Origin: Pseudarthrobacter psychrotolerans | GTDB lineage: Bacteria; Actinomycetota; Actinomycetes; Actinomycetales; Micrococcaceae | Reading direction: 5' to 3' | NCBI RefSeq assembly: GCF_009911795.1 | Contig: NZ_CP047900.1 | Location: forward strand, 48,802 to 112,801 | DNA length: 64,000 bases | Notes under the pieces: model-generated | Told to the model about the DNA's origin: nothing | The model's input: only the letters and a program-made list of their open reading frames with translations | Database searches by the model: none | In this document: one piece after another, positions 51,922 through 63,586 of the stretch | How positions within the stretch are numbered: position 1 is the stretch's first letter | How the letters are laid out: each line of letters begins with the position of its first letter | Position numbers and translations under genes: made by a program

Positions 51922-53187
51922 TCAGCGGCCACGTGTGCGGTTCTTGCTTTGCGCTTGTGCCTGGCTGGCGTTCGCGCCACGGGTTTTACCGGCCTTCGCG
52001 CCCTTGCCGGCGGCCGCGTGGGTGATGGGGTACTTCTGGATTTTCTCGCCCTGCATGCGCGCTTTGACCGCCTCGGCGGGTACCCCTGCGGTCACGAGCT
52101 GCTGTTCCAGCGCTGCACGATGTTCCGCGGTCCCGTAGGCAGCCTCCGCACGGTCGGCCGCGACGTTGCCCGCCCGTTCGTGGCTGGCCCCCTCGTGAGC
52201 CGCCCTGTCGGCTTTGACCTCTGAATCCACGGCGTCGGGGTGGTTCGCAAGGAACTCATCCCGATACCACTCCTCCTCCGGGTGAGAAGGCCCGCTCAGT
52301 TTTTCGCTTGCGGCTTCGTCCTTGGCCTGGTCAGCGCGGGCGTACTCGGCCGTGGCAACAGCCTTGTACCCCTCGGCGTCTTTCCTGGCCTCGGTGGAAC
52401 CGGCCGTATTCGGCTGGGCAAGGGCCTGTTCCGGGGTGCGTCCCTGACGGGCAAGGAACTCCTGGCGGCGCTGCTCTGCCTCCTGTTCACGCGTCTCGGC
52501 GCGGGCAGGTTCGCGGCCATTGAACCTCTTCTGCGCTGCAAGGAACTCCGGATCGAACGGCAGGACTTCCGGTGAGCCGGCGGCCATCCAGTCCTTCACC
52601 AGCTGGTCCTTGGCCTGCGGGTTGTGGGTCCGGACCTGCCCCAACAGGTGGTCCTGGTAGTCGGGGCTCTGATGCATGATGGCCCACCGCTGGGCGGCAG
52701 CCTGGACGGCTTCCGGGGCCTGCACGGTGGACCGTTCCCCGGGTGCCAGATTCATCCAGGCTTCCACGGGAGCTTCCGGCGCGTGGGCTGCGTCGATCCG
52801 CTGCTGATCCCGCACGACGTCGGTAATGTCGAACCCGAAACGCTCCTGCAGCTGGGTCCGGAGGTTCTGCTCGGCCGAGGCGGCCATCGGGTCGTGATCC
52901 TTCCACGCCGTGGCGATCCGGTAGGCGTCCACAATGTCTGCCTGCCCGGCCGATTCCCACCACTGGTTTTTGGCTGTCGGGGCCAGCGCGGTCACGGCCG
53001 CCAGCTTCTCCGAATCGAACGCCAACCGGTCCATGGCACCGCGCCGGCTGTTATCGGCCCGCGCCCGTTCGGCATGCTGGCCCCACATCCGGGCCGCGCT
53101 GGAACCAATCTGCGCTGCCATCGCCAACGCATGCTGGAAACTCTCTTCAACAAACCCATCAACGCCGTCAGTTTCACTCAACGTCAT
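51922..53187 (-). CDS. Conjugation accessory protein encoded after the relaxase
   Basis: 421 aa, charged and Ala-rich, with no membrane segment. The N-terminal half is helical (SFQHALAMAAQIGSSAARMW). The C-terminal end (ALEQQLVTAGVPAEAVKARM then QGEKIQKYPIT) resembles the end of the relaxase next door (LEEQLRAAGLPEQAIRARLQ then GEKIMP), so the two share a short C-terminal module. The start overlaps the relaxase stop by 4 nt. Function unknown; probably acts with the relaxosome. Confidence 0.7.
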   Translation of the reverse strand: MTLSETDGVDGFVEESFQHALAMAAQIGSSAARMWGQHAERARADNSRRGAMDRLAFDSEKLAAVTALAPTAKNQWWESAGQADIVDAYRIATAWKDHDPMAASAEQNLRTQLQERFGFDITDVVRDQQRIDAAHAPEAPVEAWMNLAPGERSTVQAPEAVQAAAQRWAIMHQSPDYQDHLLGQVRTHNPQAKDQLVKDWMAAGSPEVLPFDPEFLAAQKRFNGREPARAETREQEAEQRRQEFLARQGRTPEQALAQPNTAGSTEARKDAEGYKAVATAEYARADQAKDEAASEKLSGPSHPEEEWYRDEFLANHPDAVDSEVKADRAAHEGASHERAGNVAADRAEAAYGTAEHRAALEQQLVTAGVPAEAVKARMQGEKIQKYPITHAAAGKGAKAGKTRGANASQAQAQSKNRTRGR

Positions 53188-55034
53188 CCCCCACCTTTCA
53201 GTTGATCCCTGCTCTGTTGTGCCTTCTGGTCTGGTCCCTGCGTCGGCGCCCTGGACGCTTTGGGCGCCGCCGTCTTCCCCTGGGCGGGGCCCGGGCCGGC
53301 CGGCATGATCTTCTCGCCCTGGAGCCGTGCCCGGATGGCCTGCTCAGGCAGCCCGGCAGCCCTCAGCTGCTCCTCCAGTACCTCGAGGCGCGGCCGTGGT
53401 TTTTGCACCTGCTCCGGTGCGTCACCGGGCGCGGCTGCCACGGGCCGGTCAAGCACGGCCACGGTTGCGTCAGCTGTGCCCTTCATGGGCGCGGTGCCTC
53501 CGAAGTGGGGCCGGATCGGGTTGCCATCGACGGAAAGGTAAGCCCGCTGCACGGCCGTCAGTTTCTCCCGGACTTCACGGGCCAGCCGGTCAGATGTGTG
53601 CCCGTAGTCATGGGCCTTGAATGCCTTCCCCAGCTGGGCCCCGAAATCACTCCATGCGGCCAGAACCGCCGACGCCCCGGCACGCCTGGACAGGCTGATG
53701 GCCTGGTGCGTTGCGATCCCGGCAATAATCTCGCGGGTGGGAAGCACAGCTCGTTTAGGTTCTTCGGCCAGCTGCGCATGCCGGGCGAAAAGATCGGCGG
53801 CCGACGCAAGGTTCTTGGCCGCTGCGTCTCCATCCGCCCCGGCCGCTACACTCCATGCCGAGAGCACTCCTGCACCCTGACGGGCGATCTGCGCGAACCG
53901 TGCCGGATCGGTTCCATTCACGTCGCGGAAAAGCGTTGCCACCTCTTTCATTTCGCGGAAGAAAGCGTTTACAAGCTCGGCGGACACAACCTCCGAACCG
54001 GCCGGGACGGCGGTAGCGAATGCCTTGTTCTTCCCGGCGGCTTTCCACTCCGGAACAGCTGACGCGGGGTCTGTTCCAGGCCACTGCCGGCGCAGCGCCG
54101 GCAACGACAAATCCCTAGCCAAGGTCCCGCCGCCGTACCAGATAGGACGCTCGCCCGACAGCGGCCGGAACGCCACAGAGTATCCGGCAACTGCTGTGGT
54201 GTTGCCCTTGGCGAAGTACGGCCGGACCAACAGTCCTGAGCCACGGAGCCGCTGCACATACTCAGCTTCCGAACGTGCGCCAGCGCCGGCACCACGCAAC
54301 CGGCGGGCAAGCTCCACGCGCGGCTGTTCGATAGTCAGCTGCGCACCGATCAGGTGATCCCGTGCGGCCTTGTCCAGCATGGCCCAGGGCACCATGGACT
54401 GGTTGTTCTTCGCCTCTCGCCCGTACGCTGCTTCGGCGCGTCTGCGGGCCAACGATTCAAGCTCTCCCGGCTTGGTTCCCTTAGTCTTCAGTCCTTGCCC
54501 GAGCACGCGCAGGCCGAGGTCTTTCTCGATCACGCGGGCGGCTTTCTGGGACTTGAACTTACTCTTGTAATCGCTCCACCATGTACCGTCCTCGCGGATC
54601 ATGGAGATAGCCAGGTGAATGTGGTCGTTGCCGTTCTTGCTCAGCCCGTGTCGGATGGAAACCCACCGGCACTCGGCCTTCCCGTCCGCCCCATCCAAGC
54701 CCATTTCGGAGACGAACTTCCGCGACACAGTTTCCCAAAACTCATCGTCACGCTGGCCGGACTCCCCCAGCTGGTCAGGGTCCAATGACAACGAAACATG
54801 CAGCACATGGTCACGGTTGTCATCGGAGACCCGAAATGCCCTCTTGGCGAAGTTCATCTCGTGCCCCAGGGCGCGGGAATTTTCGGTATCGAGTTCCTGC
54901 CGGTCAAGCACGGACACGATCTGTTCCGACGCGCAGACCACATGCATGTTGGTGTGTTCGTTGGCCCGGCCGGGACCGGCAAGGTACTGGACGAGTCCGA
55001 ACATGCGGCTGCCGGTGCTGACGTTGGGAATCAT
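53184..55034 (-). CDS. Relaxase / mobilization nuclease
   Basis: 616 aa. The N-terminal about 200 residues are a PF03432-type relaxase: FGLVQYLAGPGRANEHTNMH, DHVLHVSLSLDPDQ, and the metal-binding histidines in SIRHGLSKNGNDHIHLAISM (about 130-150). It nicks one strand at oriT and leads it into the recipient. The remainder is a long helical region with repeats of Ala/Arg and the C-terminal LRAAGLPEQAIRARLQGEKI module. It overlaps the mobC stop by 4 nt. Confidence 0.92.
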   Translation of the reverse strand: MIPNVSTGSRMFGLVQYLAGPGRANEHTNMHVVCASEQIVSVLDRQELDTENSRALGHEMNFAKRAFRVSDDNRDHVLHVSLSLDPDQLGESGQRDDEFWETVSRKFVSEMGLDGADGKAECRWVSIRHGLSKNGNDHIHLAISMIREDGTWWSDYKSKFKSQKAARVIEKDLGLRVLGQGLKTKGTKPGELESLARRRAEAAYGREAKNNQSMVPWAMLDKAARDHLIGAQLTIEQPRVELARRLRGAGAGARSEAEYVQRLRGSGLLVRPYFAKGNTTAVAGYSVAFRPLSGERPIWYGGGTLARDLSLPALRRQWPGTDPASAVPEWKAAGKNKAFATAVPAGSEVVSAELVNAFFREMKEVATLFRDVNGTDPARFAQIARQGAGVLSAWSVAAGADGDAAAKNLASAADLFARHAQLAEEPKRAVLPTREIIAGIATHQAISLSRRAGASAVLAAWSDFGAQLGKAFKAHDYGHTSDRLAREVREKLTAVQRAYLSVDGNPIRPHFGGTAPMKGTADATVAVLDRPVAAAPGDAPEQVQKPRPRLEVLEEQLRAAGLPEQAIRARLQGEKIMPAGPGPAQGKTAAPKASRAPTQGPDQKAQQSRDQLKGGG

Positions 55035-55402
55035 CGCTGACCGAGTTCCAGCAACGTGTCATTGATACGGGCGGCGGTGCGCTGCACGGCCTTGATCGAG
55101 GCGGCCGCTTCGGCGGGAAACTCCCCCGTCGCGTTCGCGTGCTTCGCCAGCTGGTTGATGTTGTTACCCAGCGCCCGCATCATGTTTCGGATCGCGGTCA
55201 GCTCCTCGCGAACCTCAACATCAAGAACAAACTGTTCGGCCGTGCCCTGGGTCATTGCCGCGTCAAAGAGTAACGCCGGCACCGTTTTACGGGCCTGCTC
55301 AGCTTTGACAACCAAAGCAGCGGCCTCCTCATCGGAAGCCGTGACCTGCCACGAATGAGGGCGTCCGCCCTTCACGTTCGCACGACGACGACGATCCGAC
55401 AC
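55031..55402 (-). CDS. mobC: MobC-like relaxosome accessory protein
   Basis: 123 aa. A basic N-terminus (MSDRRRRANVKGGRP), then a ribbon-helix-helix-like stretch and the MobC signature AIRNMMRALGNNINQLAKHAN (in two parts, about 71-91). It binds near oriT and helps the relaxase open the DNA. It is the first gene of the mobC-relaxase-accessory operon, and the oriT-like repeats lie immediately upstream. Confidence 0.9.
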   Translation of the reverse strand: MSDRRRRANVKGGRPHSWQVTASDEEAAALVVKAEQARKTVPALLFDAAMTQGTAEQFVLDVEVREELTAIRNMMRALGNNINQLAKHANATGEFPAEAAASIKAVQRTAARINDTLLELGQR

Positions 55403-55442: not shown

Positions 55443-55530
55443 CCCCCAGACCTGGGGGACGCAAACACCAGTTTGCCACCAACCGAGAGCGAAAGCCAGG
55501 TTGAAGCGCACTTATCGTAGATAAGTGCCC
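55443..55530 (+). other. Candidate oriT with two inverted repeats and a nic-like core
   Basis: Repeat A is CCCCCAG (55443-55449) paired with CTGGGGG (55452-55458). Repeat B is GCACTTATC (55508-55516) paired with GATAAGTGC (55520-55528). Repeat B is followed on the plus strand by CCCAGC, so the sequence ATAAGTGCCC resembles the TAAGTGCGCCCT nic core of RSF1010/pIP501-type origins. Placement directly upstream of mobC supports the call. If the plus strand is cut after repeat B, DNA to the right enters the recipient first. Confidence 0.6.
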
Positions 55531-55632
55531 AGCTTGCTCCGCACGGTTGGCTTCGAGGGTTTTCGGCCCTTTGCGGGGCAACGCCCTGCAGCCTTCCCCT
55601 TAAGTGCATTGCTCACCGATAGAGTCGGGCAT

Positions 55633-56263: not shown

Positions 56264-56610
56264 CTGTGTTTCTGTGGAGCTTCAAAAGCTGGCCACAAAC
56301 GTGGAGAGCGGGCGGTCGGGACGGAGGGTCTTGAACGGTTAAACAAAGAAAGGCCGGCACTTGGCCGGCCCATCTCCGCTCCTCGGCAAAGGAAATCTAT
56401 CGGCTTCAGCTTAGCTGAAGATAATCGGTGGTCCGCAACGGATCTGGGGTACGTCATTGTCCCTGGTGGCGCGGCACCCGGTTGAGCGGTCAGTGGTGGT
56501 GCGTTACTTGGCGGTCCGTCGCTGGTGAGTGGCTGCTGTGGTTCGCCCTGGGCGGCGGACCGCCCGACTTTTGGGAGTTTCCTGGCCCTGTCGTGGTGAG
56601 TGGTCGGGGG
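56264..56610. other. Gap with minor hairpins
   Basis: About 350 bp. It holds GGCCGGCACTTGGCCGGCC (56352-56370) and CTTCAGCTTAGCTGAAG (about 56403-56419) inverted repeats. No supported gene. Confidence 0.35.
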
Positions 56611-56648: not shown

Positions 56649-58001
56649 TTATGCTGCCGTTTCGTCCACGGTTGGCTTACCGCTGTCGATGATGATCAGC
56701 TCCACCGCGCTTGGGGTGTATCCCCAAAGAACCAACTCGTTGAGGTAATCCCGGTGGGTCTGGGACGGGGACCGCCATGAGTCCTTGGCGATCGTCTTTT
56801 CGTAACCGGCGCACACGAGTGCCATCAGGGAGAACTCGGGCCGTGCCGTGGATTTGCCCACGTGATCCCGCAGTGGGTTCCATCCCCACCGGCCGGACTC
56901 TTCCGACTTCGCGCCGATCATTTCTGCGGCCACCGTTCCCTCGTAGCCGCTGGCCGTTTCGGAATGGTGCGTGATCGCGTGAACGGTGAAGTACTGCCAG
57001 CCCTTCGGTGCCTGCTTCTTCGACAGCAGAGTTTTGACGAAATCGCGCCGCACGGTGGTGGCCGACACCATGGCCTTGTTGTTCTCGATCAGTGTCTTTC
57101 GCTCGGCCTTCTGCTCGTCGGTCATGGGGCCTTTTTGAACGTTGCTTCCGCCGTCGTAGCGTTCGTACTTCGGTGTGAAACCCAGTTCCTTCCATCCGGT
57201 GATGGCCGGAGTGGCGTTGTGCTGGCCCCGGTAGTCGGTGCTCACCACATAGGCGGTGGCGTCCTCGTCGGTGGCAGGTTCCCCGTCTGCCCGTTTGGCC
57301 GCCGAGACGTAAAGGTTCTCTTCGTCGGCGTAGTGTCCGGCGTCCTCAACGACGGTCTTGCTCTGGGCTTCCAGTTCCGCGATCAGCGTGGCGAGTGCGG
57401 CGGCGCTTTCGCGCCGGTCGCGCAGCAGCTGGGCGACGTGGAGCAGCTGGTCCGGTTCGTCCAGGATGACCGATTCCAACTCAGCGGTGGCGTCCTCGTC
57501 CCCTTCGAACTCGGCCACGATGAGAGCTTCGTCGATGCTCCACCCTTTGCCCAGGGCGGCATCTCCGGCCTGTGATGCCTTGGCCTTCAACGCTCCCTCG
57601 ACGGTCGTCTTGGTCCGTCCGGTCTTTTTCGCGATTGCTGCCGCCGAGACCCCGATCAGGGACAGCTGGTGGTACGCCTCGGCTTCGTCTGCCTCGGTCA
57701 GTTCCGCGCGCTGGATGTTCTCCACCACCTGCGTCACGATCCTTTCCGCTTCGTCCGGGCTGTCGGTGACCATGACAGGGATCAGAGGGCGGGCGGCTTC
57801 CACCGCGCCACGGGTGCGGCGCTGTCCCATCAGCACGTGCACGGTGCCGTCGTCCTTGCGGTGAGCGATCACCGGTTCCAGTACGCCGTGTTCCTTGATG
57901 CTGGCTACGAACTCCTTGGTCAGTCCGACGTCCTTGCGGACGTTGGTGTCCACGGTCAGGGTTGCCGGATCGAGCCATTCGAGTACGGGTGTTGCGTTCA
58001 T
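56649..58001 (-). CDS. ParB/RepB/Spo0J-type nuclease-domain protein of the leading region
   Basis: 450 aa. Residues 10-110 are a ParB N-domain (VRKDVGLTKEFVASIKEHG, PVIAHRK, LMGQRRTRGAVEA, the ParB box). A helix-turn-helix follows (LIGVSAAAIAKKTGRTKTTV). The large C-terminal region (YRGQHNATPAITGWKELGF onward) is not ParB-like. No ParA gene is adjacent, so this resembles the ParB-like proteins often found in conjugative leading regions rather than a partition protein. The start codon is the end of the first long repeat (57995-58560), with AGAAGGAG 7-8 nt upstream. Confidence 0.8.
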   Translation of the reverse strand: MNATPVLEWLDPATLTVDTNVRKDVGLTKEFVASIKEHGVLEPVIAHRKDDGTVHVLMGQRRTRGAVEAARPLIPVMVTDSPDEAERIVTQVVENIQRAELTEADEAEAYHQLSLIGVSAAAIAKKTGRTKTTVEGALKAKASQAGDAALGKGWSIDEALIVAEFEGDEDATAELESVILDEPDQLLHVAQLLRDRRESAAALATLIAELEAQSKTVVEDAGHYADEENLYVSAAKRADGEPATDEDATAYVVSTDYRGQHNATPAITGWKELGFTPKYERYDGGSNVQKGPMTDEQKAERKTLIENNKAMVSATTVRRDFVKTLLSKKQAPKGWQYFTVHAITHHSETASGYEGTVAAEMIGAKSEESGRWGWNPLRDHVGKSTARPEFSLMALVCAGYEKTIAKDSWRSPSQTHRDYLNELVLWGYTPSAVELIIIDSGKPTVDETAA

Positions 58002-58560
58002 GGTGTTGCTCCTTCTTGCCGAGAAGTTGGGTGAGTGGGGCGACGAATGGTGACCGGCCAGCGTCCCCTCTCCCCCGTTGTTTTTTGGTTGCTGGCAAGC
58101 TTGCTTGCTCGGCGGCCGACGGAGCCCTGTCTACCCGCAGGGCAAGGTGGGGGAAATTCCCGAAGGAAATCAGCGACGAAGGAGCACCGTAGGGAAATTC
58201 CCGGACCGCAGGCCCCGACGAAGGAGGGGCTAGACGGGGTGGAGCGGACGCCTAGAATCCGAAGGACAGCAACCAAAAAACGTCGTAGACAAACAGGGCC
58301 AGGGTCTCCGGAGCTCTGCGACGGCGCGCCCTGGACCCAACAGCCGGCCGCGAAGCGGACGCCCATCCACTGGTTGAAGCGCAGCGGAAACCAGGGCGAG
58401 CCCTGCGAGCCTGCCTTTGCCCTGGTCCCACGGATCCCGCCCAAGGCCGTCCCCACACAAGTCTTGCCGCCGACACCAGGTGACCCGTCCGGATCCAACG
58501 GCGGTCCGCCGCCGGCAACCACCCACCCGTGCCGGCCACTAGCGGCGGACCGCCCGCCCA
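57995..58560 (-). repeat. Leading-region structured repeat, copy 1
   Basis: Begins at the codons ATG-AAC of the ParB-like gene and extends about 565 bp upstream of it. It contains a long-range stem GTTTTTTGGTTGCTG (58080-58094) with CAGCAACCAAAAAAC (58267-58281), an inner pair of GGGAAATTCCC arms (58151-58161, 58192-58202), a GCCCTG/CAGGGC hairpin and a GCCCC/GGGGC hairpin. Its distal 135 bp are shared only with copy 3. It acts at least as leader and promoter of the gene. Confidence 0.85.
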
Positions 58561-58584
58561 CGCAGGGCGAGCGTCCCACCGGTG

Positions 58585-58896
58585 CTATGTGGGGGTGTCG
58601 ATGATTGCCCGGATGGTGCGCTCGGCGGCTTCTGCGTGCCGCTGAAGCTCCTTGACGTCCTGGGTGTCCGGAGCGGCTTCGATCTCCTCGACCCGGAGCC
58701 GCCACGTATCCAGTAATGCGAGAAGTTCGGCCGTGAACGTCGATTCCGTGCTGCCCTGCAGGCCGAAGTAGTGGATGACGTCAGTCAGTCCGGGGTAACC
58801 GATGCCCTCGGCCGTGGCGGCGGCATTCTCGCGCTGGCCTGCCTCGAAGTGGGCCTCGTAATCGAAATCGCCGTCAGCGTCCCAAAAGTTCGTCAT
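58585..58896 (-). CDS. Hypothetical acidic leading-region protein
   Basis: 103 aa from MTNFWDADGDFDYEAHFEAG, with GGAGGCAGG upstream. Mostly helical and acidic, with no membrane segment (GIGYPGLTDVIHYFGLQGST, LLALLDTWRLRVEEIEAAPD). Not preceded by its own long repeat; it lies between repeat copy 1 and the dprA-like gene's terminator. Small acidic proteins in leading regions can mimic DNA and block restriction enzymes, but that is speculation here. Confidence 0.6.
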   Translation of the reverse strand: MTNFWDADGDFDYEAHFEAGQRENAAATAEGIGYPGLTDVIHYFGLQGSTESTFTAELLALLDTWRLRVEEIEAAPDTQDVKELQRHAEAAERTIRAIIDTPT

Positions 58897-58924
58897 GGTC
58901 CTGCCTCCTTCTCCAAAACTAGGG

Positions 58925-58950
58925 GGTGGCCGGGACGGGTTCCGGCCACC
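58925..58950 (-). terminator. Terminator of the dprA-like gene
   Basis: A 9-bp stem, GGTGGCCGG with CCGGCCACC, 9 nt past the stop, with TTT after the stem on the plus strand. Confidence 0.6.
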
Positions 58951-58958
58951 TTTGGGGT

Positions 58959-59882
58959 TTAGCTGGCGAGCAGTTCGGCCACTTCCGCCGCGTCACTGAC
59001 CAGTGCCGCCGTCCCCTCTTTCAGGAGCCGGTGGCAGCCTGCGGAGTTGGCGCTGTGGACGCTGCCGGGCACTGCGGCGACGTGCCGGGCGATGGTCTCG
59101 GCGTGGTGCGCGGTGTTCAGCGCACCGGAGCGCCACCGGGCTTCCACAACACAGGTGACCCCTGCGAGGGCTGCAATGATGCGGTTCCTCTGCAGGAAGC
59201 GGTACCGGGTCGGTGCCGTTCCTGGGGGCTGTTCGGAGACGATCAGGCCGTTGCCCTTGATCGCGGCCGCGAGGTCCGCGTTTCCGGAGGGGTAAACCCG
59301 GTCAAGGCCACCGGCCGCGACTGCGATTGTCGCCGGTCCGTTGCCGGTGCTGCCTGCGAGGGCGCCGCGGTGGGCGTGGGTGTCGATGCCGTAGCCAAGT
59401 CCGGAGATCACGCAAATTCCGCGCTGTGCCAGTCCGTGGGCCATGTCCCCGGTGACGGCTGCGCCGTAGCTGGTGGAGTCGCGGGAGCCGGTCAGGGCGA
59501 TGGAGCGCTGCGGGGTGGGGATCCCGTGGGCGAGGTTGCCGACGTACCAGAGCCCATACGGGGCGTCGGGCAGGTCTTCCAGACCAACTGGCCAGTGCTC
59601 GTCGCCGGGGACCAGGAACCCGCCGCCCAGGCGTTCGATGGTTTCCAGATCGGCCACGGGGGCGTGGGTATCAACCTCGCGGGGGTACGGTGCCCAGCGG
59701 GACAGACCTTCGGACAGTTCCTCTGCGGTGATGTCCCAGAAGGGGGCCACGGGGCGGGCTCCGAGGGCCATCCTGTAGGCGGCGTGGGCGCCGTGGCGGG
59801 CTACAAGGCCACGGGCCACGTGGTCGCTCGGGGCGAATATGCGGGTAAGGGCCGCGCGTGCGATGCGATTTTCGTCGTTCAT
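58959..59882 (-). CDS. DprA-like DNA-processing protein
   Basis: 307 aa, Rossmann-type DprA/Smf core: IALTGSRDSTSYGAAVTGDM, CVISGLGYGIDTHAHRGALA, TIAVAAGGLDRVYPSGNADL, and the ssDNA-binding SEQPPGTAPTRYRFLQRNRI. Chromosomal DprA protects incoming single strands and loads RecA. A plasmid copy just after oriT would meet the incoming T-strand. The start codon overlaps repeat copy 2. Confidence 0.85.
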   Translation of the reverse strand: MNDENRIARAALTRIFAPSDHVARGLVARHGAHAAYRMALGARPVAPFWDITAEELSEGLSRWAPYPREVDTHAPVADLETIERLGGGFLVPGDEHWPVGLEDLPDAPYGLWYVGNLAHGIPTPQRSIALTGSRDSTSYGAAVTGDMAHGLAQRGICVISGLGYGIDTHAHRGALAGSTGNGPATIAVAAGGLDRVYPSGNADLAAAIKGNGLIVSEQPPGTAPTRYRFLQRNRIIAALAGVTCVVEARWRSGALNTAHHAETIARHVAAVPGSVHSANSAGCHRLLKEGTAALVSDAAEVAELLAS

Positions 59883-60270
59883 GGTGTTGCTCCTTCTTGC
59901 CGAGAAGTTGGGTGAGTGGGGCGACCAATGGTGACCGGCCAGCGTCCCCTCTCCCCCGTTGTTTTTTGGTTGCTGGCAAGCTCGCTTGCTCGGCGGCCGA
60001 GCCGGCCCGTCTACCCGCAGGGCAAGGGCCGAAAAATCTTGCGGGATCGGCGCGGAGCGTTGATCCCTGGCTGAAGAATTTTCGGCACGCAGGCCCCCGG
60101 AGGGGGCTAGACGGGTTGGAGCGGTCGCCTAGAATCCGAAGGACAGCAACCAGAAAACGTCGTAGACAAACAGGGCCAGGGGGTCCGGAGCTCTGCGACG
60201 GCACGCCCTGGACCCTACAGCCGGCCGCGAAGCGGACGCCCACAGGGGTGCGAGCCCTGCGAGCATGCCT
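59876..60270 (-). repeat. Leading-region structured repeat, copy 2 (diverged)
   Basis: About 395 bp starting at the ATG-AAC of the dprA-like gene. It keeps the long-range stem (59961-59975 with 60144-60158, one G-T wobble) but replaces the GGGAAATTCCC arms by GCCGAAAAATCTT (60028-60040) and AAGAATTTTCGGC (60074-60086), which pair with each other apart from one mismatch. The GCCCC/GGGGC hairpin has a shorter loop. Confidence 0.85.
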
Positions 60271-60277
60271 TAAGACA

Positions 60278-60308
60278 AGAGAGCCGGCACCTGGGGTGCC
60301 GGCTCTCT
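60278..60308. terminator. Strong bidirectional hairpin terminator
   Basis: A 14-bp perfect stem, AGAGAGCCGGCACC with GGTGCCGGCTCTCT, and a 3-nt loop. It lies between repeat copy 2 and the 50-aa gene. Confidence 0.75.
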
Positions 60309-60360
60309 GGTTTCCCTCGGCAAGAGGAATCTGTGGCGCAGCGTCATCGCTGCGTGGAGG

Positions 60361-60513
60361 TTACGGCTCGACGAGCCTGTGGTCTTCCAGGGGGAAGTCC
60401 ACAGGTCCGGTGGTTGGGCCGGCGGTCAGCAGGCTCAGCTCCAGGATGTCTTCAAGGGGGCTCGCGTCAGCGGCAACGGTATCGTCCTCGGTCATGCGGA
60501 AGTGATCGGCCAC
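60361..60513 (-). CDS. Small acidic protein of 50 aa
   Basis: Starts at the GTG at 60513, with AAGGAG 8 nt upstream. Reads MADHFRMTEDDTVAADASPL and ends VDFPLEDHRLVEP. Strongly acidic with a hydrophobic centre (LEDILELSLLTAG). Below the usual gene-calling length. Its downstream neighbour is a strong terminator, which supports a real transcription unit. Unknown family. Confidence 0.5.
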   Translation of the reverse strand: MADHFRMTEDDTVAADASPLEDILELSLLTAGPTTGPVDFPLEDHRLVEP

Positions 60514-60673
60514 GCGTGGAGCTCCTTGGCTGTGTGGAACGGCGGTGTCCTTTCACAGTATCGGCAGTTCCTGCGGGCTGGCTGGAAGCGGCTGCGCCCG
60601 CGACAGCGTTAATGCGGCCGGCGGAGCGAAGCGGGGGAGGCCGCCGCCCACCTGGGAGAGATCCCCAAGGGGA
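60514..60673. other. Spacer upstream of the 50-aa gene
   Basis: About 160 bp, presumably with the promoter of the small gene. No clear element. Confidence 0.3.
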
Positions 60674-60702
60674 AGGCCGGATCCGCGGGTGGGGTCCGGC
60701 CT
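60674..60702 (-). terminator. Terminator of the DUF4192-like gene
   Basis: An inverted repeat, AGGCCGGATCC with GGGTCCGGCCT, 8 nt beyond the stop codon. Confidence 0.6.
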
Positions 60703-60709
60703 CCTTCGG

Positions 60710-61723
60710 TTAGCGGCTCAGCTGACGGTCATAGGACTTCTTGGGGTCCCGCACGCAGTCAGCCAAGAGTCCTCGGTTGACCAGTTCGGCCAGCAGTTCA
60801 GCCAGCCGGTACTCGGCGACGTCTTCCAGCGCCAGTTTGAAGTACCGGGCGGCGAAACTGGACTTTCCTTTGAGCCATTCCAGCCAGCCAATCAGGCACA
60901 GCATAGGGGCGCGCTGCCCTTCGGGGGTTGCTTTCATCAGTTCGAAAGCGACTTCCTGGGCGGTGTCCACGCGTGCCCAGTCCGGGCGGATGGGGAACAC
61001 GCCGAGCATCACGGAGGTGAACTGGTCCGGGGCGTTGGTGATGATGTCGGTCATCAGGTAGTCCCGGATGGTGGGGTGCTGGAGTGCTCCTGCGAGTTCC
61101 TGCGCGGTCTGCGTGGTGAGGGTCTTGGGGTTGTCCAGAACCTCGGCCCACGTGGCGCGGGAGGCTTCCAAGTCCTCGGGCCATCCGTCCGGTTTGTGGG
61201 CGGCGATGGTTTCGCGGGCTCCCGCTTCTCCGGTGAACGGCGCCGGTGGGGTGAATCCGGTGACGTTGCTCCCCCGGTAGATCATGGCGGCGTTTCCGTT
61301 GCTGGTGGTGATGGCGTCCAGCGGCTTGTCGGGGCAGCAGCTGGTGTACTCGCACAGGTAGTTCCTCCACAGTTCGGAGGTCACCAGCCATGCGTCCTTC
61401 AACGGCATCCCTGCCGTTTCCAGTTCGACGCGCAGCGCCTGCACGTGCTCGGAGTAGGGGCGCTGGTTGGGGGCGGTGTTTTCGTCCGTGTAGATCACCA
61501 GAATGGTCCCCGTCGCTGCCACGTCAGCGGTCAGGTAGCTGACCAGCGTCTGGGCGAAGGCCACCGGTTCCAGACCGAACGGGGCGTCTACGCGGAGCGT
61601 GGCACCGAGCTTGTTTCCCTGCATGGTTACAGCGACGAAGGATTCCTTCGGGGCCTCCCCCAGCGTGTGGGGAATGAAGGCCAGGATGTCGGCCGGGCCG
61701 GTGAATTTGATGAAGTCGTTCAT
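60710..61723 (-). CDS. DUF4192-like protein
   Basis: 337 aa. The N-terminus (FTGPADILAFIPHTLGEAPK, ESFVAVTM, TLRVDAPF, LVSYLTADVAATGTILVIYT) is typical of the actinobacterial DUF4192 family. The C-terminus is helical (APMLCLIGWLEWLKGKSSFA, ARYFKLALEDV). Chromosomal DUF4192 proteins have no settled function. The start codon lies in repeat copy 3. It is one of four genes with this repeat, so it is probably expressed together with the ParB-like and DprA-like genes. Confidence 0.75.
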   Translation of the reverse strand: MNDFIKFTGPADILAFIPHTLGEAPKESFVAVTMQGNKLGATLRVDAPFGLEPVAFAQTLVSYLTADVAATGTILVIYTDENTAPNQRPYSEHVQALRVELETAGMPLKDAWLVTSELWRNYLCEYTSCCPDKPLDAITTSNGNAAMIYRGSNVTGFTPPAPFTGEAGARETIAAHKPDGWPEDLEASRATWAEVLDNPKTLTTQTAQELAGALQHPTIRDYLMTDIITNAPDQFTSVMLGVFPIRPDWARVDTAQEVAFELMKATPEGQRAPMLCLIGWLEWLKGKSSFAARYFKLALEDVAEYRLAELLAELVNRGLLADCVRDPKKSYDRQLSR

Positions 61724-62290
61724 GGTGTTGCTCCTTCTTGCCGAGAAGTTGGGTGAGTGGGGCGACCAATGGTGACCGGCCAGCGTCCCCTCTCCCCCGT
61801 TGTTTTTTGGTTGCTGGCAAGCTTGCTTGCTCGGCGGCCGACGGAGCCCTGTCTACCCGCAGGGCAAGGTGGGGGAAATTCCCGAAGGAAATCAGCGACG
61901 AAGGAGCACCGTAGGGAAATTCCCGGACCGCAGGCCCGACGAAGGAGGGGCTAGACGGGGTGGAGCGGACGCCTAGAATCCGAAGGACAGCAACCAAAAA
62001 ACGTCGTAGACAAACAGGGCCAGGGTCTCCGGAGCTCTGCGACGGCGCGCCCTGGACCCAACAGCCGGCCGCGAAGCGGACGCCCATTCACTGGTTGAAG
62101 CGCAGCGGAAACCAGGGCGAGCCCTGCGAGCCTGCCATTGCCCTGGTTCCCACGGATCCCGCCCAAGGCCGGCCCCACCCAGGTCTTGCCGCCGGCACCA
62201 GGTGACCCGCCCGGATCCCACGGCGGGAACGGCGGTCCGCCGCCGGCAACCACCCACCCGGGACGGCCACCGCGGCGGACCGCCCGCCCA
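61717..62290 (-). repeat. Leading-region structured repeat, copy 3
   Basis: About 574 bp, nearly identical to copy 1 over its whole length. Stem arms GTTTTTTGGTTGCTG at 61802-61816 and CAGCAACCAAAAAAC at 61988-62002; GGGAAATTCCC arms at 61873-61883 and 61914-61924. It begins at the ATG-AAC of the DUF4192-like gene. Confidence 0.85.
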
Positions 62291-62318
62291 ATTTCAGGTT
62301 CCGTTGGTCGGGAAAGCA

Positions 62319-62362
62319 GGGTACTCACTTACTCATTTGAGTATTTGAGTAAGTGAGTACCC
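62319..62362. other. 17-bp perfect hairpin with TGAGTA repeats
   Basis: GGGTACTCACTTACTCA (62319-62335) pairs with TGAGTAAGTGAGTACCC (62346-62362). The loop continues the same TTGAGTA phrase. It could be the terminator of the 62369 gene (6 nt past its stop) or an operator made of repeated TGAGTA half-sites. Confidence 0.6.
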
Positions 62363-62368
62363 CGTTTG

Positions 62369-62644
62369 TCAGTTCATCGTGGGGCGGTGTTCCGCGGCGA
62401 AGAGGACGGCCACGATCTCGTTGTGCCAGTCCAGCGCGGCGTATTGCCGGGTTGTCTCCAGCAGTGCGGGGTTCACGTGGGCGTCGCTGGTGACGACGTC
62501 GGCCATGCCCCTGATGTGCGCGGCGAGGTCTTGGGCGGCTTCGGGGCTGTAGGTCACTGGGGACTTCGCAACGAGGTCGGCCAGGGTTTCGAGGAACACT
62601 ACGGTCTGGGCGGTGGTTTCAGCGGTTCGGTTTGTCTCGGTCAT
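62369..62644 (-). CDS. Hypothetical leading-region protein
   Basis: 91 aa from MTETNRTAETTAQTVVFLET, with AAGGA upstream. All helical, acidic, no Cys or membrane segment. It ends EIVAVLFAAEHRPTMN. Without its own long repeat, it lies between repeat copy 3 and the gene at 62731, and may be read through from the promoter of the latter. Unknown family. Confidence 0.55.
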   Translation of the reverse strand: MTETNRTAETTAQTVVFLETLADLVAKSPVTYSPEAAQDLAAHIRGMADVVTSDAHVNPALLETTRQYAALDWHNEIVAVLFAAEHRPTMN

Positions 62645-62680
62645 CGTTCTTGGTCCTTAGCTGTGGATCGGTGGGGGTGG

Positions 62681-62717
62681 GGCCTTGCCGGGCGGAGGCT
62701 GTCCGCCCGGCAAGGCC
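62681..62717 (-). terminator. Terminator of the gene at 62731
   Basis: A 15-bp perfect stem, GGCCTTGCCGGGCGG with CCGCCCGGCAAGGCC, and a 7-nt loop. It is almost the same stem as after the ParB-like gene. Confidence 0.75.
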
Positions 62718-62730
62718 GTTCGGCTGAGGG

Positions 62731-63162
62731 TTAGGCCGCTTCCTGGTACATGGAGGGAATCCGGTAGCGGCTGGGCAGTTCGGCGGCGGCTTCGGGCAGG
62801 TCTGCCGGTCCTTGGGCCTGTCCGTTCTTCCAGTGGTAGAACGCCTGTTCGCTGATCGCTTCCCAGAACCGGGCCTTGGTCCGGTAGAACGTGCATGTCA
62901 CGTCGCCCTCGCAGTACGTGGCCATGCCGAACAGGTTGCCGATGCCGTCGGCGGTGCGGATCCCGGCGACCATGACATAGGGCCACTGGCCCAGGTCCCA
63001 GCCATCGCTTCCCCAGCTGGGAATCACGGACCAGCCGTGTTCGCCGATGAGTTCCATCCAGTCGTAGCCGCCGTTCATGTGGTAATCGCCCAGCACGGTA
63101 ACCCCGTCGATCGTTTCGCCGGTGTCCACGGTGGTCACCGTCTTGATGGTGATTGCGTTCAT
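62731..63162 (-). CDS. Hypothetical leading-region protein with repeat leader
   Basis: 143 aa from MNAITIKTVTTVDTGETIDG. Beta-rich and Trp-rich (GGYDWMELIGEHGWSVIPSW, GSDGWDLGQWPYVMVAG), then TYCEGDVTCTFYRTKARFWE and a helical C-terminus. No recognised domain. The start codon lies in repeat copy 4. The shared leader places it in the same expression class as the ParB-, DprA- and DUF4192-like genes, which makes it a candidate early-acting or anti-defence protein; this is inference. Confidence 0.65.
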   Translation of the reverse strand: MNAITIKTVTTVDTGETIDGVTVLGDYHMNGGYDWMELIGEHGWSVIPSWGSDGWDLGQWPYVMVAGIRTADGIGNLFGMATYCEGDVTCTFYRTKARFWEAISEQAFYHWKNGQAQGPADLPEAAAELPSRYRIPSMYQEAA

Positions 63163-63586
63163 GGTGTTGCTCCTTCTTGCCGAGAAGTTGGGTGAGTGGG
63201 GCGACCAATGGTGACCGGCCAGCGTCCCCTCTCCCCCGTTGTTTTTTGGTTGCTGGCAAGCTTGCTTGCTCGGCGGCCGACGGAGCCCTGTCTACCCGCA
63301 GGGCAAGGTGTGGGAAATTCCCGAAGGAAATCAGCGACGAAGGAGCACCGTAGGGAAATTCCTGCGCCGCAGGCCCCGACGAAGGAGGGGCTAGACGGGG
63401 TGGAGCGGACGCCTAGAATCCGAAGGACAGCAACCAGAAAACGTCGTAGACAAACAGGGCCAGGGTCTCCGGAGCTCTGCGACGGCGCGCCCTGGACCCA
63501 ACAGCCGGCCGCGAAGCGGACGCCCATCCACTGGTTGAAGCGCAGCGGAAACCAGGGCGAGCCCAACGAGCCTGCCATTGCCCTGG
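63156..63586 (-). repeat. Leading-region structured repeat, copy 4
   Basis: About 430 bp. Stem arms 63241-63255 and 63428-63442 (one G-T wobble); GGGAAATTCCC arm at 63312-63322 and a slightly altered partner at 63353-63362. It diverges from copy 3 after CCCTGG at 63586. Confidence 0.85.

Follow-up and report, generated by a model that had tools for sequence, protein, structure and literature searches.

Repeated folds ahead of leading-region genes as probable single-stranded-DNA promoters in actinobacterial conjugative plasmids

In the F plasmid, Frpo1 and Frpo2 are stem-loop folds with −10 and −35 boxes that are required for early expression in the recipient (PMC9849209). Two surveys have sought Frpo elements by BLAST with Frpo-derived sequences; in that of Samuel et al. 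(2024), leading regions were searched with known Frpo/ssi sequences plus candidates from the islands of one figure (PMC11541004). Structured repeats also precede the establishment genes of pLS20 plasmids; there the non-template strand is transferred, and no promoter has been found (PMC8708921). In Arthrobacter plasmids, Mihasan and Brandsch (2016) reported repeats 5′ of DUF4192, DprA and ParB genes (via PMC10494377 and PMC6305408), counted in 12 plasmids (as cited in PMC10494377). Here we describe a long structured repeat in a 64,000-nucleotide stretch of Pseudarthrobacter psychrotolerans DNA (the window), the right end of contig C3 (bases 48,802–112,801 of 112,801) in a 5.17-Mb genome of three contigs. 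We propose that each copy of this element acts as an Frpo-like single-stranded-DNA promoter for a single leading-region gene in the recipient, a reading to which we give a probability of roughly 84%.

The folding strand and the predicted transferred strand

The element occurs four times in the window, in copies of approximately 370–570 nt found by BLAST and repeat search. As a first-pass annotation made from the letters alone had claimed, each copy begins at an ATG-AAC start codon: GTTCAT, the complement of ATG-AAC, opens all four, and an AAGGAG ribosome site precedes it in the gene direction. Over the aligned part, copies 2, 3 and 4 are 87, 96 and 98% identical to copy 1. Copy 2 ends at 60,242, or at 60,306 in the ungapped family, where the annotation had given 60,270 (Table 1). 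Counted from CAT, the conserved core of the element spans positions 54–370, and positions 503–566 form a GC hairpin after the preceding gene.

A pattern scan identified at least 118 loci; we discarded 19 as chance 21-mer matches, since none of them matched any of six core copies by BLAST. The fold was studied in 82 non-redundant copies (<90% identity to one another), or in 72 once 10 interrupted or truncated copies were left out; eight of these 10 retain the −10 hexamer described below, and the other two (L113 and L119) have lost that arm. RNAalifold gave the 82 copies a consensus energy of −196 kcal/mol for the + strand and −176 kcal/mol for the − strand, with large covariation terms. Across 60 pairs in 30 diverse copies, 95.2% of cells were paired, compared with 89.3% after shuffling and 34–48% when partners were slid, and 23 pairs had changed on both sides, a number that none of 500 shuffles reached (shuffled mean, 11.3).

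The same helices distinguish the two strands by their wobble pairs. When helices P1–P3 were read on the + strand, the 72 copies held 141 G·T but only 10 A·C cells (P1, 21/0; P2, 43/3; P3, 77/7), and of the 31 pairs, 11 showed G·T in two or more copies but only 2 showed A·C that often; helix P5 held 3 and 0. Mutational strand bias through deamination was considered as the source of this asymmetry and ruled out, because transition rates differ little by strand: C-to-T and G-to-A changes affected 245 of 4,293 (5.7%) and 227 of 4,901 (4.6%) unpaired positions, and 165 of 2,872 (5.75%) and 185 of 3,160 (5.85%) paired positions. Folding with DNA parameters, with insertion columns removed, formed P1, P2 and P3 in 69, 65 and 61 of the 72 + strands and left the −10 open in 61; the corresponding values for the complement were 69, 51, 53 and 27. 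Covariation and wobble asymmetry, both read from sequence comparison, together show that the + strand, not the mRNA strand, is the one selected to fold.

The first-pass annotation had also proposed that the genes led by the repeats read toward an origin of transfer (oriT) at 55.5 kb. This is borne out, the led genes lying on the − strand and the oriT core, which is adjoined by genes for a MobC/NikA-like protein and a MobA/VirD2-type relaxase, lying at 55,508–55,541. We compared the sequence upstream of mobC in 24 MOBP regions (20 that were fetched, the window and three named plasmids); the oriT inverted repeat was computed for three of them and recognized by eye in the others. The motif AGCTTGCTCCG lies a few bases 3′ of the inverted repeat in 22 of the 24, its exact form being missing from L263 and L267; in each of these 22, it occupies the side that faces away from the relaxase gene. 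In MOBP and MOBQ origins, the conserved flank of the inverted repeat holds nic. Since this flank should hold nic here too, the + strand is predicted to be cut, to enter 5′ end first with the repeat region and to serve as the template of the led genes; the relaxase is typically in the lagging region (PMC11541004). For MOBF plasmids, we took the transferred strand from geometry only. The strand that folds is the strand predicted to be transferred.

A predicted promoter within the fold

Every one of the 72 uninterrupted non-redundant copies carries the hexamer TANRAT on the far arm of the + strand (TACAAT in 40, TAGAAT in 20, TAAAAT and TATGAT in 5 each, and TACGAT in 2). The P2 duplex stops one base before this −10 hexamer, at −12, and P1 begins at +3; between the −10 and P1 lies a TCC-GGA mini-hairpin in which every pair is Watson–Crick in 72 of 72 copies. 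The predicted unpaired junction, one base longer in some copies, therefore spans approximately −12 to +2. The usual transcription bubble extends from approximately −11 to +2, and the modelled open stretch matches it. From the predicted +1 to the ATG, all four window copies have a 94-nt leader. By contrast, no conserved −10 was found on the gene-sense strand, which averaged approximately 0.2 TANNNT per copy (420 nt in 74 copies), at no single position in more than 7% of them, so that the duplex is not expected to initiate transcription toward the gene. In the modelled structure, a gene-directed −10 exists only through the fold, which supports the single-stranded-promoter reading that the first-pass annotation had put forward.

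We propose the following mechanism. The fold of the + strand joins two distant arms; while the plasmid is still a transferred single strand, the near one, adjoining the gene, would act as template and the far one as non-template carrying the TANRAT −10. A −35-like TAGAC(G), a less clear feature, would lie 16 nt upstream on the far arm, within the P3/P2 duplex. With the junction unpaired from −12 to +2 and the 13-bp P1 following from +3, the promoter would be pre-melted where polymerase needs it. A SigA-type holoenzyme of the recipient would bind and probably start at the G opposite 58,096, after which polymerase would leave P1 and continue toward oriT on the single-stranded template, making a transcript whose 94-nt leader precedes the ATG. 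Second-strand synthesis would give the near arm a complementary partner that lacks a −10 and so end gene-directed initiation, confining expression to a brief early period. The fold may in addition serve to prime that synthesis. Because the unpaired junction matches the polymerase bubble, the prediction is sharp: if the reading is correct, changes at −11 or −7 or a broken P1 should abolish single-strand transcription, and restored P1 pairs should bring it back.

Table 1. Coordinates of the element, its predicted promoter parts and neighbouring features in the window
Feature	Position	Strand	Remarks
Element copy 1	57995–58560	+ (transferred-strand orientation)	leads ParB-like gene, ATG 57999–58001 on −
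Element copy 2	59876–60306	+	leads DprA-like gene; to 60242 by BLAST, to 60306 in the ungapped family
Element copy 3	61717–62290	+	leads DUF4192 gene
Element copy 4	63156–63586	+	leads 143-aa gene
P1 near (template) arm	58082–58094	+	pairs with 58267–58279
P1 far (non-template) arm	58267–58279	+	+3 to +15 of predicted promoter
P2 near arm	58111–58120	+	pairs with 58244–58252 (spacer duplex)
P3 near arm	58124–58133	+	pairs with 58231–58240 (−35 duplex)
P4 arm	58142–58209	+	most covarying helix, 13 of 14 pairs changed on both sides
−10 TAGAAT, predicted unpaired	58253–58258	+	equivalents 60130–60135, 61974–61979, 63414–63419
−35-like TAGACG	58231–58236	+	in duplex P3, 16 nt upstream of −10, weakly conserved
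Predicted +1	58096	−	G in RNA opposite C; placed from the fold
ParB-like gene	56649–58001	−	PF02195 (ParB_N), E 3.3e-10; TIGR00180 (parB_part)
103-aa leading-region gene	58585–58896	−	no assigned function; relative led by a copy elsewhere (L064)
DprA-like gene	58959–59882	−	PF02481, E 1.5e-62; TIGR00732
DUF4192 gene	60710–61723	−	PF13830, E 1.4e-36
143-aa gene	62731–63162	−	family adjoins element in other plasmids too
oriT core	55508–55541	+	inverted repeat 55508–55528, then CCAGCTTGCTCCG 55529–55541, predicted nic region
MobC/NikA-like accessory gene	55031–55402	−	
Relaxase, MobA/VirD2-like	53184–55034	−	PF03432, E 2.7e-11

Distribution, orientation and distant relatives

The element is matched in 35 of 99 genomes (our own and 98 relatives), 33 of them from the same genus including our own; in the two out-of-genus genomes the matches are short and weak. 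BLASTN on plasmid records returned 190 places in 63 records, all from Arthrobacter, Paenarthrobacter, Pseudarthrobacter or Citricoccus, and 56 of the records are typed as conjugative or mobilizable. Strands were counted from 144 match rows on 57 contigs after merging the pieces of one copy. Wherever a contig had at least two distinct copies with matches of at least 60 bits, these were on a single strand (31 of 31 contigs); counting every weak row as well gave 33 of 34, the lone exception (G039:C2) being a 55-nt, 41.9-bit piece of the outer hairpin.

Relaxase geometry, counted from the stronger match rows, is similarly consistent. The expected arrangement, in which led genes read toward the relaxase start and the relaxase points away, was present on 26 of the 29 contigs with both element and relaxase (20 MOBP and 6 MOBF; the relaxase of G000:C3 was placed from open reading frame (ORF) and domain data), although in five of the 26 (G009:C21, G024:C6, G025:C23, G040:C3 and G055:C2) agreement for every copy requires a circular contig. 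The three non-conforming contigs (G017:C1, G022:C1 and G026:C1) are chromosome-sized and have no relaxase within 60 kb. The scatter of copies in random orientation that the first-pass annotation had named as evidence to the contrary is thus absent, and mapping the repeat across actinobacterial plasmids relative to oriT and mobC, as it had suggested, gave a consistent orientation along with the oriT motif reported above. Recurring led genes are ParB-like, DprA, DUF4192, the 143-aa family and relatives of the window ORFs at 58,585 and 62,369.

Copies on chromosome-sized contigs were seen in L247 (G059:C1:4505000-4520000), with ParB- and DprA-like genes, and in L246 (G022:C1:985000-1000000), within which copy L103 stands at the start of a ParB-like gene. 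The 15 kb fetched for each contained no oriT motif; no relaxase lies within 60 kb on G022:C1, and none was found in G059. These copies are perhaps decayed integrated plasmids or integrative and conjugative elements. Other copies are interrupted by transposase-encoding elements, IS110-like by eye, as in L244 (G056:C22:26200-28950) and L245 (G017:C2:41900-43900) and likewise in L092, L108, L111 and L115. The insertions use two recurrent sites, after approximately position 187 in the P4 loop and at approximately 268–272 in the mini-hairpin beside the −10.

A covariance model built on the 198-nt promoter core matched 15 of 297 Micrococcales genomes at E 0.01, and in several distant matches the P1 sequence differs yet still pairs. 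Of 16 distant copies inspected, eight directly precede genes of the same families (G158, ParB and DUF4192; G172, the 143-aa family; G242 (twice) and G330, DUF4192; G353, ParB and DprA), one precedes a glutaredoxin-like gene, and the others precede an uncharacterized gene or none that we found. G353 shares an identical 60-residue stretch with a Brachybacterium avium plasmid (Dermabacteraceae). Read by eye, A−11 and T−7 are kept in 15 of the 16 (the exception is L297) and T−12 often is not; this reading is not fully independent, because placement had some freedom and the model rewards the −10 columns. Among 11 distant contigs with a relaxase, the strand relation is correct in 10, G196:C36, a weak match, having the wrong one; the order is correct without assumed circularity in 7, and G158, G130 and G153 fit it only if their contigs are circular. 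Of the two copies in G330, the first has no relaxase nearby and the second does, and the matches in G128, G237 and G261 and a 34-nt match on G099:C38 were left out of the geometry.

Directed scans and BLASTN extended the search to further plasmids. On a Curtobacterium sp. C1 plasmid, the model matches before a DUF3846-ParB gene (E 5e-12) and before a small gene followed by ArdC (E 4e-8); on Mycolicibacterium gilvum Spyr1, it matches before nrdH (E 7e-6) and ParB (E 3e-5) on the expected strand. A further Spyr1 match before DUF932 (E 0.05) is not above chance and carries no weight alone, because most chance-level matches share the strand of real ones. In BLASTN searches, the Mycolicibacterium leader matched 109 plasmid records, among them 43 from Rhodococcus, 28 from Mycobacterium and 26 from Prescottella, and the Curtobacterium leader matched 72, among them 25 from Clavibacter, 20 from Curtobacterium and 7 from Microbacterium. 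We fetched 12 Rhodococcus and Nocardia records from the 109. Each of the 12 has an opposite-strand gene that reads away from the match and starts at its gene-side end or close to it (within about 40 bases in 11, about 200 in L312); the annotated ones are one ArdC-like and two DUF4192 genes. The 12, aligned with three Mycolicibacterium copies (the Mycobacteriales set), favour folding of the template strand (−155 versus −132) and keep A−11 and T−7 in 15 of 15, the alignment again being read by eye. A class-wide covariance scan with strict filters matched 4 of 394 genomes, all Micrococcales, so that the claim for Mycobacteriales rests on the directed scans and BLAST. As judged from these sequences, breadth beyond Micrococcales is probable but not certain.

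Several observations concern the surrounding genes. In the genome of the window, contig C2 has two further copies a few kilobases from a MOBF (TrwC) relaxase, and no copy was found on contig C1 at E 0.001. Rfam gave no match in the window at gathering score and none up to E 1 on 57,990–58,700. Domain matches agree with the identification of three led genes as ParB-like, DprA-like and DUF4192; the fourth, which the first-pass annotation had called unknown, encodes a 143-aa protein with no match in Pfam or NCBIfam. The 143-aa family is repeatedly led by the element, has a relative at 35% identity in another genus and is a candidate establishment or anti-defence protein. Similar GC-rich hairpins with shared ends (GGCGGTCCG...CGGACCGCC) follow the stop codons of the ParB-like gene (56,510–56,564) and the gene at 58,585 (58,500–58,554) and are terminator-like without a T run. 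A glutaredoxin/NrdH gene is present in all five annotated actinobacterial leading regions (L042, L124, L269, L298 and L299), where a single-stranded-DNA-binding protein (SSB) gene is found in four (none is annotated in L299), a ParB-like gene recurs and ArdC occurs in L299; most of these NrdH, SSB, ParB-like and ArdC genes lie on one strand. On the Mycolicibacterium plasmid, another multi-copy repeat, distinct from the element, lies ahead of additional same-strand genes (L300 17921-26150).

Alternative explanations and relation to known systems

Several findings weigh against a single-stranded promoter of the proposed design. Helix P4 is less one-sided than P1–P3 (67 G·T versus 31 A·C), and the outer helix P0 has no wobble bias (5 versus 5). 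The structure claimed in the first-pass annotation is supported by covariation but not in a single sequence, as the 566-nt copy alone barely beats its shuffles (z −1.04 for + and −0.99 for −). Our counts overstate independence, because the 72 copies are relatives of one another, gene conversion may occur between copies on one plasmid, and the structure under test came from these copies themselves. The −35 is weak: exact TAGACG occurs in 27 of 72 copies and variants in the rest, including three with an unrecognizable CAGGTG. In double-stranded DNA, the same far-arm −10 would fire away from the gene. The consensus fold of the Mycobacteriales set has its −10 paired, which means that the junction is not open everywhere; at pairs shared by both strands, the G·T to A·C ratio of this set is only 37:26. 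Finally, the internal layout of F Frpo was not matched: a transferred-strand TANNNT was found once in Frpo2 and not in Frpo1.

The most substantial alternative is a structured 5′ mRNA leader (an attenuator, riboswitch or insulator, as in EGeRS1 of pLS20), in which RNA of the − strand folds downstream of an ordinary promoter. The element does lie in the 5′ region of genes, most of its helices could be formed by either strand, and EGeRS1 likewise places a long structured repeat, in which no promoter has been recognized, ahead of establishment genes (PMC8708921). However, every G·T on the + strand would be an A·C mismatch in the mRNA, and given the 141-to-10 imbalance in P1–P3 we rejected folding as mRNA. 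With no conserved −10 on the gene-sense strand, and with a transferred strand that is non-template in pLS20 but predicted to be template in the window, we consider a leader unlikely. A distinctly improbable possibility is that the element is an ssi/sso site at which polymerase primes the second strand on the folded transferred strand, gene expression being incidental. The same anatomy would suffice, and the title of Masai and Arai (1997), in the reference list of PMC11541004, gives Frpo both roles; but one such site per plasmid would be enough, yet there are several here, tied to a few gene families and each to a start codon, with the same 94-nt spacing in all four window copies. The priming and promoter roles are compatible, and neither excludes the other.

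We also considered that the far arm acts as a conventional promoter in duplex DNA, with TAGACG-N16-TANRAT starting an RNA of + sense away from the gene. In that direction the motif is a fair actinobacterial promoter by the usual consensus, and G·T pairs on the + strand would suit such an RNA equally well. This is very improbable nevertheless, as the covariation of the near arm, which lies upstream of such a promoter, with the far arm would have no explanation, and a + RNA over the whole fold would need a promoter near the ATG, where no TANNNT is shared. Next to no probability attaches to the element being a parS-type centromere for the ParB-like protein, or a set of neutral repeats of the plasmid backbone that recombination maintains. 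The led genes are frequently ParB-like, a type among the commonest, and copies on one plasmid often resemble each other closely, but orientation is fixed, the distance to the start codons of several unrelated genes is nearly so, the arms covary, and distant plasmids keep the fold with a different sequence.

The single-stranded promoter therefore remains our preferred reading, and we lean towards a broader form of it: a class of such promoters across conjugative plasmids of Actinomycetes (Micrococcales and Mycobacteriales), of both MOBP and MOBF types, whose several subfamilies would share one architecture, a template joined to a −10 on a distant arm and active only when single-stranded. The Arthrobacter subfamily would have its bubble pre-formed from −12 to +2, and relative to Frpo the class would be either of independent origin or very anciently related. 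If the promoter reading is right, zygotic expression from single-stranded DNA serves actinobacterial plasmids too, and the element marks leading regions worth searching for anti-defence genes. In the papers cited here, the single-stranded promoters described come from Enterobacterales or are Frpo-derived candidates, and BLAST surveys with such sequences are unlikely to have found these elements; in the excerpts of PMC11541004, the main text has no mention of Actinobact-, Actinomycet- or Arthrobacter, and an extended-data legend names a Streptomyces island. Novelty for Actinobacteria, which the first-pass annotation had claimed, does not hold for the repeats, which very likely are those reported in 2016 (pAO1 is among the plasmid BLAST matches), but does hold for promoter function, as far as the available text goes: passages citing the 2016 repeats name no promoter or single-strand function (PMC10494377 and PMC6305408), and we found no relevant report of a single-stranded promoter in Actinobacteria in the open-licence PMC literature.

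At sso and ssi sites, RNA polymerase recognizes folded plasmid single strands and makes short primers. The element resembles them as a folded plasmid single strand that polymerase would recognize and differs in sitting before the start codons of several genes, a position in which sso and ssi sites are not known. Like EGeRS1 of pLS20 in Bacillus, it is a structured repeat of 400–600 bp 5′ of establishment genes on a Gram-positive conjugative plasmid; unlike EGeRS1, its transferred strand is the predicted template and its −10 is conserved (PMC8708921). With Frpo/ssi of F and ColIb-P9 it shares a leading-region location, a transferred strand that serves as template (as predicted for the element), a folded strand with a −10 and repetition before several genes. 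A ParB-like gene is found in the leading regions of both F-type Frpo plasmids and the window (PMC9849209 and PMC11541004), and DUF932, SSB and anti-restriction genes occur both in F and in actinobacterial relatives of the window region. Sequence homology to Frpo was not detected (the best covariance-model score on the F leading region, 10.6 bits at E 0.027, was no better than chance; no direct BLAST of Frpo against the window was made). Unlike the Frpo/ssi elements of Enterobacterales, the window element belongs to a different phylum and holds its −10 open in a junction. Together, these comparisons suggest a function of a known kind, that of Frpo, in a sequence family, host phylum and pre-opened design that are, as far as we have seen, new.

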